DNA of 64,000 bases, taken from positions 1 through 64,000 of the forward strand of contig CALVEC010000004.1 of assembly GCA_944326475.1 (NCBI GenBank), given 5' to 3'. The translations under genes were made by a program, and so were the position numbers. Positions 30,675 through 37,981 of the stretch are shown here, in pieces; within the stretch, counting starts at the first letter, position 1; every line of letters begins with the position of its first letter. Source of the DNA: Candidatus Gastranaerophilales bacterium. GTDB taxonomy: Bacteria; Cyanobacteriota; Vampirovibrionia; Gastranaerophilales; Gastranaerophilaceae. The notes under the pieces were generated by a model. The model did no database searches and was not told the origin of the DNA. It saw only the letters and a program-made list of their open reading frames with translations.

Positions 30675-30695
30675 AAGACCTGTTATACAGGTCTT
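30675..30695. terminator. Hairpin terminator between convergent genes
   Basis: AAGACCTGT (30675-30683) and its complement ACAGGTCTT (30687-30695) enclose a 3-base loop. The repeat follows the purine phosphorylase stop and overlaps the 3' end of the convergent small gene, whose TAA lies in the hairpin. The A-rich 5' flank and T-containing 3' flank allow use from both sides. Confidence 0.7.
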
Positions 30696-31060
30696 CCTAA
30701 TCTTTCTTGAAGCATTTTATTTTGTTCTTCTATAACTTTTTTGGCTTTATGTTTATAGTACAGACTCATCACTGAATCTATAGCAATAAATCCGAGACCT
30801 ACGATAGCGGCATTTGAACCTATTGTTTTCCAGGACTGCTGCGGTGCTTTGGTTACATAATTATAACCGGCTCTAACCGCATCAAATAACCCGCTGACTA
30901 CAGCACCCAAAACAAACTGCTCGCCCATTCTTTTCAACGTCTTTTTAGCCGGGCTTTCAGGTTTTTCATAATAAGAAAGACCAAAAGCCGGTTTTTTGCA
31001 TCCGGGGCAGTTGTTTTTGTAAGTGTTAGAGACATTTGCCGAAGAAATTGCTTGTATCAT
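30683..31060 (-). CDS. Small protein with Cys pair, FG motif and membrane-like segments
   Basis: A 125-aa protein I cannot name. The N-terminus has CPGC (residues 19-22), perhaps a metal site, followed by PAFG. The rest carries two weakly hydrophobic helical stretches, FVLGAVVSGLFDAVRAGYNYV and SNAAIVGLGFIAIDSVMSLYY, that could be membrane-associated, and a charged helical tail (KAKKVIEEQNKML). GGAG lies 7 bases upstream of the ATG. The AFG motif is like those near the start of the helicase (3012) and of the protein at 44765. Confidence 0.65.
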   Translation of the reverse strand: MIQAISSANVSNTYKNNCPGCKKPAFGLSYYEKPESPAKKTLKRMGEQFVLGAVVSGLFDAVRAGYNYVTKAPQQSWKTIGSNAAIVGLGFIAIDSVMSLYYKHKAKKVIEEQNKMLQERLGRPV

Positions 31061-31714: not shown

Positions 31715-32591
<877 letters not shown>

Positions 32592-32630
32592 ATTTTATCC
32601 CTCTTATACACAAATTATAATATATAAAAA

Positions 32631-32653
32631 GCTGCGCCAATATATAACGCAGC
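32631..32653 (-). terminator. Terminator of the pilin-adhesin operon
   Basis: GCTGCG and CGCAGC arms (32631-32636, 32648-32653) form a stem on the minus strand followed by TTTTTATAT. It lies just after the stop at 32676 and before the PilZ gene, so it ends the three-gene operon. Confidence 0.75.
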
Positions 32654-32675
32654 CCTTTTGCTATAACAAAATACC

Positions 32676-34214
32676 TCACCAGGAAACAATGATACCGCCG
32701 GAGGCACCATTACCGCCTTGTCCGTATGTTGTTCTTTGTTTTATGTATTCCTGATTGGTTTCTTTATATGATTCAACCTGTTCTTTTGACATGTTGATTG
32801 CAGCACCGCCGCCGCCGCCGCCGGAGCCAAGACCTCTGCCTTCTGCGCCGTTACCGGCTGTTGTGCTGTATCCGCCTCTGCCGCCGGCACCGCCGACTGA
32901 GTCACCAATGTATGTAGTTGGAGCACTTGCACCTTGACCGCCTATACCTGCATTTTCACCAACCGGAGGCGATGTGGATTCAGAGCAGCCTGTGCCGCCT
33001 TTTGCCGTAACCTGGTTAAAGACAGTAGCCTGACCGTCTTTACCCGGAAGACCGCCTTTACCTATTTGTATAACAGGTGCTTCTTCAGTATCATCCTGAC
33101 GAGCCATAAGAACTGAGTTTACAGAACCGGCACCGCCGCCGCAGCCGCCTCTGAGGTCAACTGTCGTAGACACAGCTTTTACGTATGAGGTTGAACCGCC
33201 TGATATTATATCAGCACCTGCCGGAGCTTTTTTTACAAGCATTCTGTAATCACCTACATCACGTGTATAAATAGGCGTATATCTGTTACAAGATATGAAT
33301 CGGCAGTTATTATCCGAGTAGTTGCTGACGTACATACCGCCTGCTCCGCCTTCAATTTCAACCAAATCTTCTATATTATTTTTATTATATTCTTTTTCTT
33401 TTAAAAATACCCTGTCACCATTTGAACCCGGTTTAGAAACAATATTTTTAAATGTAAACCAATCCAGATTTATTGACATCCCGTCAAAAATAGCAACGGC
33501 ACCGCCTTCAACTAAACCACCCGGACAGATTTTCTGGTAGTTGTCAATTTCTGTATCCGGTTGTGTTTCTAACCAGAGTTTGTCTCCGGCACGATATGTC
33601 TTTTTATATTTTACACTTGCAATTGTAGGGTTCGGTTCAGCACCGGGGTATTCACAATTTGCCAGAATATATTCTCTACCGTTTGGATCGACCAAAAACG
33701 CTTCAAAGAAATTATCCATCAACTGACCAACAGTACCCTTATTGCCAACCACATTAACTTCGTATTCAGCCGTAGCCGGTATTTCAAGAGCATTACCGGC
33801 AATGCCCATTTCATACTCTTTGTCAGCTTCTGTAGCTATAGGCAGGTTAAACGTATCTTCAGGTTTGATAAAATCAAGATACGGCAAACCTTCATCAAAG
33901 TTACCGCCGGCACCGCCGCCTACTACTTGTATCAGCATATAGGGTACATTTGACGGAAGAACAGGGAAGGTGCAGCCCTCTTTCCATTTGTCAGGATTTG
34001 AGGGAAGCGCCGAGTTCTGGTCAGCGGCTGTCGCATGATACATTTTGTTGTTTATATACTTACAAGCCCACTTGCCGTGAGGTCCTCTTGTCGGAAGAAT
34101 AAGGTGTTTTTTAGTGATAACAGGCATGGTCGCAGCAAGTATCAATGCCGCAATCAATAATGCTATCATAGCTTCTGCAAGTGAAAATGCTCTTTGTTTT
34201 TTGTTATAAATCAT
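32676..34214 (-). CDS. Prepilin-like protein with glycine-rich adhesin-like domain (third of three)
   Basis: A 512-aa protein. The prepilin peptidase site is A|FSLAEAM (residues 9-15) with Glu at +5, then a single hydrophobic helix to about residue 30 and TKKH. A head with HGKWACKYINN, W and GC (a likely disulfide) leads at about residue 98 to YMLIQVVGGGAGG, the start of a glycine-rich domain that continues to the C-terminus and ends GGIIVSW. That type of tail is known from phage and bacterial Gly-rich adhesive proteins. The start has a good ribosome-binding site (AAGGA). It lies 21 bases after its paralogue and is followed by a terminator. The protein is likely exposed on a pilus or as a minor pilin; receptor unknown. 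Function is inferred. Confidence 0.82.
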   Translation of the reverse strand: MIYNKKQRAFSLAEAMIALLIAALILAATMPVITKKHLILPTRGPHGKWACKYINNKMYHATAADQNSALPSNPDKWKEGCTFPVLPSNVPYMLIQVVGGGAGGNFDEGLPYLDFIKPEDTFNLPIATEADKEYEMGIAGNALEIPATAEYEVNVVGNKGTVGQLMDNFFEAFLVDPNGREYILANCEYPGAEPNPTIASVKYKKTYRAGDKLWLETQPDTEIDNYQKICPGGLVEGGAVAIFDGMSINLDWFTFKNIVSKPGSNGDRVFLKEKEYNKNNIEDLVEIEGGAGGMYVSNYSDNNCRFISCNRYTPIYTRDVGDYRMLVKKAPAGADIISGGSTSYVKAVSTTVDLRGGCGGGAGSVNSVLMARQDDTEEAPVIQIGKGGLPGKDGQATVFNQVTAKGGTGCSESTSPPVGENAGIGGQGASAPTTYIGDSVGGAGGRGGYSTTAGNGAEGRGLGSGGGGGGAAINMSKEQVESYKETNQEYIKQRTTYGQGGNGASGGIIVSW

Positions 34215-34235
34215 ATAGTTGTCCTTGTATTATAT

Positions 34236-35780
34236 TTACCAGGTTATTACCAATAATCCGTTGGTACCGTTTCCGCCCGTACCCTGATACCATTTTCTGG
34301 TACCATTCTGAACAGGCTGGCTATTCATTGCTTCTGTTAATGAATTGTTGTATGTCGGAGTGGTTGTGTAATATATAGCTCCGCCGCCACCGCCGGCACC
34401 ATAACCGGAACCGTTACCGCCGTTAACTTTTGCGGCACTTGCTCCTGCCTGTCCGGCACCTAAAGCACCGAGTCCGCCTGTTGATACCAGTTTTTTAATA
34501 CCGGTAGCTGCTTCACCGTCAGAACCGCTTGTCTGGCTGACTGTTTTACAGTTGCCGCCGGTAGTACCGCCTGCTGCAGGGAAGGAACCAAACGATGTAG
34601 CTGTAGCAGGTGTGGTCGGAGTACCGCCTCTACCTATCACTATAGCAGGTATCGTATCTCTAAGTACCGGATAAAGGGTAGCAGCAGTTTGTCCTGCTTC
34701 TCCGCCGCAGCCGCCGCTAGGTGTAAATTCTCTGGTTGAAGAATTTTTGGTTGTTGAGTATCTTATTGTCGCAACACCATCCTGAGACGGATAGTTTCTA
34801 TAAGCACCATTTGTGTTTGGATCCATATAAACTACATCGGACATACCGGTAGCTTTTACGAGTGTTCCGTTTGCGCCCTGAGTTACTGTATATCTGTTTG
34901 TACAGTTAGGCGGATTTGTTGAGCTGCAAACAGTAACTCCGGCTTTACTTCCGTTAATTGAAAGAAATTCAGAGCCGTTTAACAGCAATGCCGTTTTACC
35001 GCCGTCTTTTCCTTTATAGTACTCATCTTTAGTCGGTCTGTGTCTGTTATCACCGCAGAAAAAGTTAGTGTCTGTATTAGTAACTTTTTCTTCTTTGTAA
35101 AGCTGAATAATATCACCGCGTTTTAGCTGCATTTCACCCTGAACACGATAAGGAAATCCCGGCTGGGAAGGCGCAACGTTGCAGCCTCCGTTAGCCAAAT
35201 CCCACTCGGAACGCCAGCTCGATTCACCGTACTGACCGAACAAGTATATTGTGTACCATCCGTCATATTCAACGTAATATTTGTCACCATGAACCCCAAG
35301 ATCACCGTCTTGAACTCTGGATTCTTTGTCCCAGGTAACAGATGCATCTTTTCCGGCGCCGCCGCCGCCAATCATCGTGACATTAAGCAAGTTTGCATAT
35401 TTAGGAACCTTGAAGTTAGACTGGCAGTTACCGAGCTTCCATCCGGCGCCTCCGGGCGCAGGTATTTCTGCATTTCTGCTGTTGGATTTAAAGTAATACT
35501 GCTGGTTATTAAATATTGTACAGGCATATAAACCATGAGGTACCTGAGGATCACCTTTTTTAAGTTTTTTAGGGAGTATAATACCTGAACCCATAGCCAG
35601 AATCGCAACCAATAGCAGAATCATAATCATTTCCGCCAAACTGAATGCATCTTTTAGAGAAAGTTTTTCTGTTTTACCTGAAACAATATTTTTTATATGA
35701 GCCAAAAAATCAAAAAACAGGCAGCCCTGAACAGAGTTCAGGGATGCTTGCTTTTGAGGTTTTTTATTACTTTTTTCCAT
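34236..35780 (-). CDS. Prepilin-like protein with glycine-rich adhesin-like domain (second of three)
   Basis: A 514-aa paralogue with a longer leader of about 40 residues before the cleavage site A|FSLAEMI. The helix IMILLLVAILAMGSGIIL, the head HGLYACTIFNN with a second Cys after GWKLGN, and a glycine-rich domain beginning VTMIGGGGAG follow. It ends NGLLVITW. The frame is open to 35792, but GAGGA sits 6 bases before the ATG at 35780, so that start is chosen. It lies in an operon between the other two and shares the domain order but diverges strongly in the Gly-rich part. The leader is rich in charged and polar residues. Confidence 0.82.
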   Translation of the reverse strand: MEKSNKKPQKQASLNSVQGCLFFDFLAHIKNIVSGKTEKLSLKDAFSLAEMIMILLLVAILAMGSGIILPKKLKKGDPQVPHGLYACTIFNNQQYYFKSNSRNAEIPAPGGAGWKLGNCQSNFKVPKYANLLNVTMIGGGGAGKDASVTWDKESRVQDGDLGVHGDKYYVEYDGWYTIYLFGQYGESSWRSEWDLANGGCNVAPSQPGFPYRVQGEMQLKRGDIIQLYKEEKVTNTDTNFFCGDNRHRPTKDEYYKGKDGGKTALLLNGSEFLSINGSKAGVTVCSSTNPPNCTNRYTVTQGANGTLVKATGMSDVVYMDPNTNGAYRNYPSQDGVATIRYSTTKNSSTREFTPSGGCGGEAGQTAATLYPVLRDTIPAIVIGRGGTPTTPATATSFGSFPAAGGTTGGNCKTVSQTSGSDGEAATGIKKLVSTGGLGALGAGQAGASAAKVNGGNGSGYGAGGGGGAIYYTTTPTYNNSLTEAMNSQPVQNGTRKWYQGTGGNGTNGLLVITW

Positions 35781-35803
35781 TGTTTTCCTCATGTATTAAG
35801 TGT

Positions 35804-37714
35804 TTACCAGCTTACGATAATCATACCGTTGTCGCCTTTACCGGCAGGGAGGACTTCCCATCTGCCTTTAGGTTCTTCATCTTCAATACGGCTGTATCTA
35901 TAATCTCGTTTAGGTCCGTTGAACGGTCCTGAAGTATCCCAGATTTTTACATCACCGGCGCCGCCGCCATTGCTGACACCTGAAATACCCATAGAATTAT
36001 ATCTCTGACCGTTGCTGGCTACTTCGGCTTTATTTATATCAGTAGTTTTTGTATAGCAGCCTTTGTACGCACCTTTACCGCCTTCTGCTGTTACCCAGCT
36101 GAAGAATGTGTCGCCACCGTCTTCATTGTCTCCGCCGCCTCTGCCGACCTGAAATTTCATATTTCTAGCGCCGGCAGTCGGAAGCATAGATGCATTAATT
36201 TGACCTGCTTGACCATGACATCCGACATAGTATTCGAATCTATCAAGGTCTACATAAAGCCCTTCTTCACGGGTTGCATCTTTTGAAGGCTGCTCAAATC
36301 CGGATACTTTAATTTCATTATATCCGTTAGCCCCGTTTGTTGCACACTGTGTTGAGCCACCTCTTGAATTAGGGAAGTTCGGGTGAGGTCCGCAGTTATT
36401 GCAGCAATTCGTACCGGTTGTTCCGAGAAGTCCTGCTTTACCGCCCCATGTAGTGACAAGAAGTTTTGAAGTACCTGTAACAACAGTACCCTGACCAGTT
36501 TGGCTGTTTCCGCCGGAAACATTTACAACAAAGTGTTTGTAGTCATAAGACTCTGCGTCATGAGCTTTTGTTACAGTATAACCACCCGCTGTACCGGGAT
36601 TATATTCTTTATATGTACCTTTAGCGACTTTAGAAATATATTCACCTGTCTTCATGGATACTTTACCGGATATAGGCTGCGAGCCCGTTCCACCAGTGGC
36701 TGTCGGCAGAGGTCCTCTGTGATTTTTGTCACAGTATGCACCTGCATATACCCAGCAATCATGAACCTTACACTGATACGGATTACAGTCATAATATTCA
36801 GTATTATAGCCAGTACAAGTATCGCATGTAGGAGTACAATCAGCTCCGCCTGTAACAAGACCGTTTCTGTACTGCGAGTTAAATAATTTGTCTATGAGAT
36901 TGTCTGACAGTATTTCTGTGTTTGCCGGCGTGTACATACGACCGCCGCCACCCCAGCCGCCGCCGGAACCGCTTGAGCTGGAGCTGGATGAGCTGCTCGA
37001 GCTGGAGCTGGATGAGCTGCTCGAGCTGGAGCTGGATGAGCTGCTCGAGCTGGAGCTGGATGAACTGGGACAAGAAGTACAATTACAATCGTACTCATAC
37101 GGCACACTTTTAGAGCAGGTTTCATAACAAGTCTCCCAGTGCCAAACTTCGTCTATAATGTTACTTTCGCAGTTATTATTACATTCACCGCCGGAATGCC
37201 AGTATTCATCATAAAAAACGCCCTGGTTTCCGTATTTATGATAACCAGAAGGATCGTAGATACTGCTTCCTGCTGTACGTGTCATAGCACTACCGCCATC
37301 AGCACCTTTAATATAGACACTATATGTACCATCAATAGGGACAGCTTCACCCCAGTTGATATGTTCTACATAGTATTCCCAAGGTGTAACCTTAGCCGGT
37401 GAGCCGCCGCCGCCTGCACCGTATACCTCAACATAGAGATATTTTACGCTCTTACCCGTTCCGGGAAAGACACAACCCTTAGCCCATTCGCTGTCAGGGG
37501 GCAATTCGTCGTCAATATTCGCGGCTCTGGCTGAATGCAAAGTGCCGTTGATATACTTACAAGCCCACTTTCCGTGCTGAGAGTTGTTATCAATTGTTCT
37601 GTGTTTTTTAGTGAACACAGGAATCGATGCAGCTACAAGCAAGGCAACAACCAACATTGTTACCAATGCCTCTGCCATTGAGAATGCTCTTTTTTTCATC
37701 ATTTTCTTTTTCAT
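35804..37714 (-). CDS. Prepilin-like protein with glycine-rich domain and poly-serine tract (first of three)
   Basis: The first and largest gene of the operon (636 aa). The cleavage site is A|FSMAEAL, followed by the helix VTMLVVALLVAASIPVF, TKKH, and the head HGKWACKYINGT with a Trp and a second Cys. A cysteine-rich middle (about 22 Cys in all) brackets a run of exactly 32 serines, then GSGGGWGGGG. The Gly-rich domain ends DNGMIIVSW. The serine run is encoded by 24-bp repeats and could act as a flexible spacer or be glycosylated. The start at 37714 has a poorly spaced ribosome-binding site; internal ATGs 4-5 codons later are possible. Confidence 0.82.
   Translation of the reverse strand: MKKKMMKKRAFSMAEALVTMLVVALLVAASIPVFTKKHRTIDNNSQHGKWACKYINGTLHSARAANIDDELPPDSEWAKGCVFPGTGKSVKYLYVEVYGAGGGGSPAKVTPWEYYVEHINWGEAVPIDGTYSVYIKGADGGSAMTRTAGSSIYDPSGYHKYGNQGVFYDEYWHSGGECNNNCESNIIDEVWHWETCYETCSKSVPYEYDCNCTSCPSSSSSSSSSSSSSSSSSSSSSSSSSSSSSSSSGSGGGWGGGGRMYTPANTEILSDNLIDKLFNSQYRNGLVTGGADCTPTCDTCTGYNTEYYDCNPYQCKVHDCWVYAGAYCDKNHRGPLPTATGGTGSQPISGKVSMKTGEYISKVAKGTYKEYNPGTAGGYTVTKAHDAESYDYKHFVVNVSGGNSQTGQGTVVTGTSKLLVTTWGGKAGLLGTTGTNCCNNCGPHPNFPNSRGGSTQCATNGANGYNEIKVSGFEQPSKDATREEGLYVDLDRFEYYVGCHGQAGQINASMLPTAGARNMKFQVGRGGGDNEDGGDTFFSWVTAEGGKGAYKGCYTKTTDINKAEVASNGQRYNSMGISGVSNGGGAGDVKIWDTSGPFNGPKRDYRYSRIEDEEPKGRWEVLPAGKGDNGMIIVSW
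36974..37066. repeat. 24-bp minisatellite coding poly-serine
   Basis: About 3.9 tandem copies of a 24-base unit (eight Ser codons, using AGC, TCC, TCA and TCG) lie in the first pilin-like gene. Copies are nearly identical at the DNA level, including the choice of codon. The unit is a multiple of three, so copy changes keep the frame and only alter spacer length. Confidence 0.92.
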
Positions 37715-37981
37715 ATCCTATCTTTTTCTATTGATTGCTCGTTCTACCAGTAATGATATTATATATATCATAATATATATATAATACCCAATTGTGATAA
37801 TAATATCACACTTTTTTAAAATTTTGTATGATATATTAGGAGTATTCCGCTATTTACCTGAAAATACAGCTTAATAATCCTTTATATAGTGAATATTTAC
37901 AATCTTGATAAAAATAATATAATAAAAATTAGCACTAAAATTCATACAGCAAGAGTATAAAACAACAAGGATTTAATCATT
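37715..37981. promoter_or_regulatory. Divergent control region of pilin operon and leuA
   Basis: The 267 bases are extremely AT-rich. They hold an 18-base dyad TGTGATAATAATATCACA (37793-37810), a second smaller dyad near 37754-37772, and a good leuA-side promoter TTTACA (37896-37901), 16 bases, TATAAT (37918-37923). TATATA-like sequences may serve the pilin operon. The dyad has CRP/FNR-like half-sites but an 8-base gap, not 6. Confidence 0.5.

Follow-up and report, generated by a model that had tools for sequence, protein, structure and literature searches.

A three-paralogue prepilin operon with candidate phage-fibre-like heads in Gastranaerophilales

In a 64,000-nucleotide stretch of DNA from a Candidatus Gastranaerophilales bacterium, an uncultured gut relative of the cyanobacteria (assembly GCA_944326475.1, contig CALVEC010000004.1, positions 1 to 64,000; hereafter the window), three adjacent genes on the minus strand encode large proteins with prepilin-type N-termini. 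We read this three-gene cassette, with a probability of about two in three, as a minor-pilin operon that presents phage-fibre-like receptor-binding heads at or near the tip of a type IV pilus. Each protein probably consists of a pilin anchor joined to a TNF-like/glycine-rich head. Since the three-gene set recurs across the family, it would probably form a fast-changing adhesive tip of surface pili.

The open reading frames (ORFs), the signal motif and a core alignment model bear out the starting observation of an earlier, sequence-only reading, namely three neighboring minus-strand genes combining prepilin N-termini with large Gly-rich ectodomains. The genes lie side by side (Table 1), with gaps of 21 and 11 base pairs (bp). 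The lengths of 512 and 636 amino acids (aa) given by that reading stand, whereas the middle gene encodes either 518 aa from the ATG at 35792 or the proposed 514 aa from a second ATG at 35780, preceded by a better ribosome-binding sequence and located where the orthologue in genome G002 begins. Behind its A↓FSLAE or A↓FSMAE site, each protein has one hydrophobic helix, a basic segment and a long glycine-containing ectodomain, which terminates in IIVSW in genes 1 and 3 and in LLVITW in gene 2. The leader of gene 2 is unusually long, at 45 aa. With the cleavage site, Glu at +5 and the hydrophobic N-terminal helix, the three proteins carry predicted class III signals. Judging from homology to their relatives, they also appear to fuse a pilin N-terminus to a domain that is not specific to pili, as modular pilins do.

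The shared part of the family was captured in a 100-column core alignment (A4), comprising the prepilin helix, HGxxxC, C-F-PP, and then a strand and a Gly run. This core of ~100 columns corresponds to no Pfam or NCBIfam family; its model takes in all three window proteins, and a search with it recovers them at 1e-25 to 1e-30. At E ≤ 1e-8, 122 of the order's 286 genomes contain the core, and with a single exception these belong to the window's family, the Gastranaerophilaceae; a phylum-wide sample gave only two matches outside the order (~1e-6). From the fetched regions we parsed 55 cassettes of three adjacent genes in 11 genera which, having been picked from hits, show architecture and not frequency. 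Glu5 is retained in 161 of their 165 proteins and the C-terminal Trp in 163. Gene order is fixed, with gene 1 spanning 353-931 aa, gene 2 159-893 aa (median 350) and gene 3 408-1406 aa (median 731), and most gaps are below 40 bp or replaced by small overlaps. At least 24 of the 55 cassettes have a prepilin gene of ordinary size no more than 400 bp downstream, as in minor-pilin operons.

Orthologous three-gene units were found in further genomes of the window's genus. The neighborhood search across Gastranaerophilales that the sequence-only reading had suggested thus returned a family-wide unit of conserved order, not one peculiar to the window genome, and because the conservation spans 11 genera, a chance origin of the observation is ruled out. 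The three-gene rule is not universal, since the genomes of genus g52 (among them G112 and G182) carry up to 10 core matches each and those of g6, such as G008, have dispersed single genes. At locus L044 (G002:C22, 5764-17036), two complete cassettes stand on either side of a gene for a 290-aa prepilin, a homologue of which, 89% identical, lies alone on another contig of the window's genome (L081:2438-3310). Contig L057, which was assigned to a Lachnospiraceae metagenome bin, carries the cassette and, flanking it, a gene with 93% identity to that of the window; it was probably mis-binned.

The genome contains one secretin-PilB-PilC locus, one prepilin peptidase and several ordinary prepilins, and two PilT-family ATPases exceed the TIGR01420 cut-off. 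The prepilin peptidase and the assembly platform are therefore found in the same genome, together with PilB, PilC, PilT and secretin as in a type IVa machine, which agrees with the type IV pilus or type II-like apparatus proposed from the sequence. PilB scores best to type IV PilB and has a cyclic-di-GMP-binding motif above the cut-off. Within the family, the core occurs in 49 of 93 genomes with PilC vs 0 of 9 without detectable PilC (Fisher p 0.003, uncorrected for kinship).

To assign the ectodomain, we relied on a homologue. An AlphaFold2 model of L111, a 317-aa position-2 protein, was obtained from 38 sequences with a predicted local distance difference test (pLDDT) of 83 and a predicted template modeling score (pTM) of 0.68. 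Residues 14-35 form a 22-residue pilin helix and residues 37-43 a low-confidence linker, right after which starts a phage-fibre-like domain that takes in the final (V/I)xW strand. The closest match was the fibre of cyanophage Pam3 (Z score 12.2, root-mean-square deviation 2.4 over 130 of ~270 ectodomain residues, range 47-317), followed by the Bxb1 tail tip (Z 10.7) and the ALK/LTK series (Z 8.2-9.1), with unrelated rows at Z 4 and below. A viral library likewise returned glycine-rich phage proteins. We saw no separate pilin globular domain in the L111 model, and the match lists contained no CofB, TcpB or other pilin chain, which does not in itself exclude a pilin fold.

Family-wide searches point the same way: 19 of 42 family members match Pfam Gly_rich_2 at E ≤ 0.1 (best 63.5 bits, cut-off 24.3) and 18 of 42 match the tail-fibre family phrog_863 (best 4.3e-16). 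The adhesin-type ectodomain of the sequence-only reading is thus supported by a modeled fold, in a homologue, of the kind found in phage receptor-binding fibres, but the window proteins themselves gave no match to Gly_rich_2 (PF21722) up to E 1, which makes them remote relatives and not members by the cut-off test. We also scored the C-terminal Gly module against 300 composition-preserving shuffles per protein, without bias correction; genes 3 and 2 rose above the shuffles, with 43.6 vs 22.9 bits and 40.1 vs 19.9 bits (decoy maxima), respectively. In four loci (L126, L128, L148 and L056), the middle gene encodes 159-188 aa and retains the core and the final strand but lacks the glycine-rich insertion, apparently a bare TNF-like head. 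An idea drawn from these genes, that the Gly-rich part interrupts an otherwise ordinary pilin fold, was superseded by the fold result, according to which the domain accepting the Gly insertion looks like a TNF-like sandwich. Searches of PDB sequences with the hidden Markov models A1 and A2 gave nothing up to E 10, and the best matches of A3 were dismissed as low-complexity Ser runs. A tblastn search with P0001 and L140 against phage records produced no match, so no recent phage gene was found.

Several results weigh against the minor-pilin reading, beginning with the fold, whose assignment to the window proteins is a transfer from the homologue. Modeling of gene 3 (512 aa) with AlphaFold2 from six sequences yielded a pLDDT of 35, most likely because the sequences were too few. 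The L111 model found nothing in the PDB by Foldseek at E <0.001, Bxb1 being the best at 4.5e-3. In profile comparisons, the window families join their Gly_rich_2-positive relatives at an hhalign probability of 99.9% for that of gene 3 and 99.6% for that of gene 2, which favors the reading, but the matches span mainly the prepilin helix, the core and the first module. The Gly module of gene 1, at 18.0 bits vs a decoy maximum of 20.4, is inseparable from composition, and with composition correction none of the three window proteins is significant. At the N-terminus, the residue at -1 is Ala and not Gly. The expectation that the N-termini would match prepilin models was borne out for gene 3, the only one to pass the N_methyl cut-off, but not for gene 1 (14.9 bits, or 20.2 in the genome search) or gene 2 (no match). 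In the machine, finally, the best PilM candidate reached 14.5 bits vs a cut-off of 27, in a search that was positive in 9 of 14 control genomes; with no PilM above the cut-off, the machine departs from the textbook type IVa pilus.

The departures at the N-terminus, Ala at -1 and two of three proteins under the N_methyl cut-off, would suit proteins that are merely anchored by a hydrophobic segment and stay on the inner membrane, never entering a pilus. We consider this very improbable given the Glu5 and FSLAE context kept in 161 of 165 proteins, the N_methyl matches in 24 of 42 family members and the absence of the core from sampled family genomes without PilC. The lack of a PilM above the cut-off bears on another alternative, in which the three proteins serve a type II secretion-like system as tip pseudopilins, pushing or selecting secreted cargo on a short filament, and do not act as surface adhesins. 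In line with it, the secretin scores slightly higher against GspD than against PilQ, PilC lies closer to GspF, and a weak GspC-like match is seen in the gene preceding the secretin. The two PilT/PilU retraction ATPases, a PilB closest to its type IV counterpart and the several other prepilins speak for a pilus, however, and the rapid divergence of the ectodomains is more in keeping with outward contact than with conserved cargo handling, so that secretion appears unlikely. A third arrangement would place the proteins along the filament shaft as structural subunits, giving a bristly coat with no tip complex. The flexible linker could hold the heads off the shaft, as the authors of the modular-pilin work also allow (PMC8179133). 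Heads of ~50 kDa or larger on neighboring subunits would, however, be expected to clash, and the single copy of each of three paralogues beside a small prepilin resembles a minor-pilin operon; neither point is decisive, and we regard the shaft arrangement as improbable.

Under the preferred minor-pilin reading, the prepilin peptidase would remove the leader of each of the three products and the N-terminal helix would enter a type IV pilus assembled by the genome's single PilB/PilC/secretin platform. Through a short flexible linker, the helix would bear a TNF-like β-sandwich with a glycine-rich insertion in place of the pilin globular domain. The bulky heads, at or near the pilus tip, would bind a receptor in the gut, on which PilT could then pull. 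The retention of three paralogues in fixed order suggests a single complex holding all three heads, presumably one of each. The phage head being threefold and three paralogues persisting, the tip head may even be an obligate heterotrimer, with the cassette exchanged or sorted as a unit to give different receptor specificities among related gut bacteria; this extension is tentative and, in our estimate, rather doubtful.

The history of the paralogues was followed on a tree of the core, whose ~99 columns leave the deep forks weak. In six genera (g2, g8, g11, g14, g25 and g51), the proteins of positions 2 and 3 form one group each and those of position 1 nearly so, which suggests that the three paralogues are probably older than these genera. 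Positions 1 and 3 are sisters in the window's genus (98), which may have acquired its three paralogues independently or had them altered by gene conversion. Within the genus, identity is 74-100% (mostly 84-100%) in the N-terminal segment and falls to 40-58% in the rest between cassette types. When genome G003, with its cassette at the same site, was compared with the window, the flanking proteins were 77-97% identical (most 85-97%) and the cassette proteins 51-57%. The G003 cassette is nearer to that of G001 (67-74% over all three genes), which occupies a different site and has right-flank proteins that are overall more distant from the window's (76-96%). G002 has three cassettes. A clean empty site was not found in G001, where the left flank differs too. 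These sequence comparisons indicate that the ectodomains diverge far faster than the anchors or the flanking genes, and that the three genes switch type together, via cassette exchange or sorting of old duplicates.

The proteins, called giant by the sequence-only reading, are so by comparison with ordinary pilins; sizes of about 50 kDa and as many as 860 residues have, however, already been described for modular pilins (PMC8179133). Like the cassette, PilB and PilC of Streptococcus sanguinis join a class III prepilin N-terminus with Glu5 to a bulky domain not specific to pili, and an adhesin role has been shown for PilB (PMC8179133). They differ in that they consist of a pilin module with a C-terminal graft (vWA, lectin) (PMC8179133), whereas in the cassette the TNF-like/Gly-rich domain comes straight after the helix, no pilin globular module is seen and three paralogues are fixed. 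Fibre gp24 of Pam3 has a TNF-like and glycine-rich head on an N-terminal helical anchor and recognizes the host as a trimer (PMC9608196). The L111 model shares such a head with gp24 and the Bxb1 tail tip, with a prepilin helix in place of the phage anchor. The Pam3 fibre is a homotrimer requiring a chaperone (PMC9608196). The extracellular TNF-like and glycine-rich region of ALK/LTK belongs to the same fold family; these are animal receptor kinases, and their ligand binding is uninformative about the ligand of the cassette. The type IVb proteins TcpB and CofB resemble the proposed tip heads as large tip minor pilins with a trimeric distal domain (PMC9565799), but form homotrimers of one protein and gave no fold match here, unlike the three paralogues of one operon.

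Full-text searches of a partial collection found no literature joining minor pilins with glycine-rich tail fibres and, for TNF-like or jelly-roll pilins, gave other pili only. As modular pilins are already known, we rate a phage-fibre-type head in a three-paralogue cassette as a new variant. If correct, it would extend the range of domains known on type IV pili by a receptor-binding head of the phage-fibre type and offer a testable case of a three-paralogue tip complex. Little work exists on attachment in this family of gut bacteria, and the cassette is a concrete candidate for the means by which Gastranaerophilales adhere to hosts or other microbes. The ~100-column core provides a ready marker for annotating proteins that now look hypothetical.

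Table 1 Features of the three-gene operon in the window
Feature	Position	Strand	Evidence
Gene 1, 636-aa prepilin with TNF-like/Gly-rich ectodomain (putative)	35804..37714	-	ORF, A4 core, orthologues
Gene 1 leader (predicted cleavage between A10 and F11) and N-terminal pilin helix, residues 1-37	37604..37714	-	sequence; N_methyl 20.2 bits
Gene 1 ectodomain, HGKWAC (residue 47) to IIVSW	35807..37576	-	A4 core match
Gene 1 poly-Ser spacer, four 24-bp tandem repeats, 97% match	36971..37067	-	
Gene 2, prepilin of 514 aa (start 35780) or 518 aa (start 35792) with TNF-like/Gly-rich ectodomain (putative)	34236..35792	-	
Gene 2 long leader (predicted cleavage between A49 and F50) and N-terminal pilin helix, residues 1-77	35562..35792	-	sequence
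Gene 2 ectodomain, HGLYAC (residue 86) to LLVITW	34239..35537	-	core match; 40.1 bits vs decoy maximum 19.9
Gene 3, 512-aa prepilin with TNF-like/Gly-rich ectodomain (putative)	32676..34214	-	
Gene 3 leader (predicted cleavage between A9 and F10) and N-terminal pilin helix, residues 1-37	34104..34214	-	Pfam N_methyl 24.6 bits, cut-off 21.2
Gene 3 ectodomain, HGKWAC (residue 46) to IIVSW	32679..34079	-	core match; 43.6 bits vs decoy maximum 22.9
Intrinsic-terminator-like hairpin ending the operon, 14-bp stem and T run	32626..32658	-	fold z -3.06
Intergenic region between operon and divergent gene; presumed promoter region	37715..37981	undefined	

No promoter match above chance was found in the intergenic region upstream of gene 1. 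The poly-Ser repeats of gene 1 could change length in frame by slippage, and orthologues carry Gly- or Asp-rich runs at this place. Within the long leader of gene 2 lies a palindrome, CCCTGAACTCTGTTCAGGG (35720-35746, minus strand), whose coded residues are retained in G002; it was rejected as a genome-wide repeat, being single-copy in the genome.

Directly downstream of the cassette, behind the terminator, a PilZ-domain gene (31989-32591, minus strand) keeps the same site in G002 and G003. We rejected it as part of the cassette because the terminator lies between them and the two are no longer linked where the cassette occupies another site. Given this gene and the PilB motif, pilus activity may be controlled by cyclic-di-GMP. 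Finally, small proteins encoded in the window (30683-31060, minus strand), at L052:969-1331 and by small ORFs of L118 have a short opening stretch with a P/S-x-FG-like motif at its end (as in KKPAFGLSYY, QPSFGMALY and NISFGANFV), possibly a common N-terminal signal in the group.

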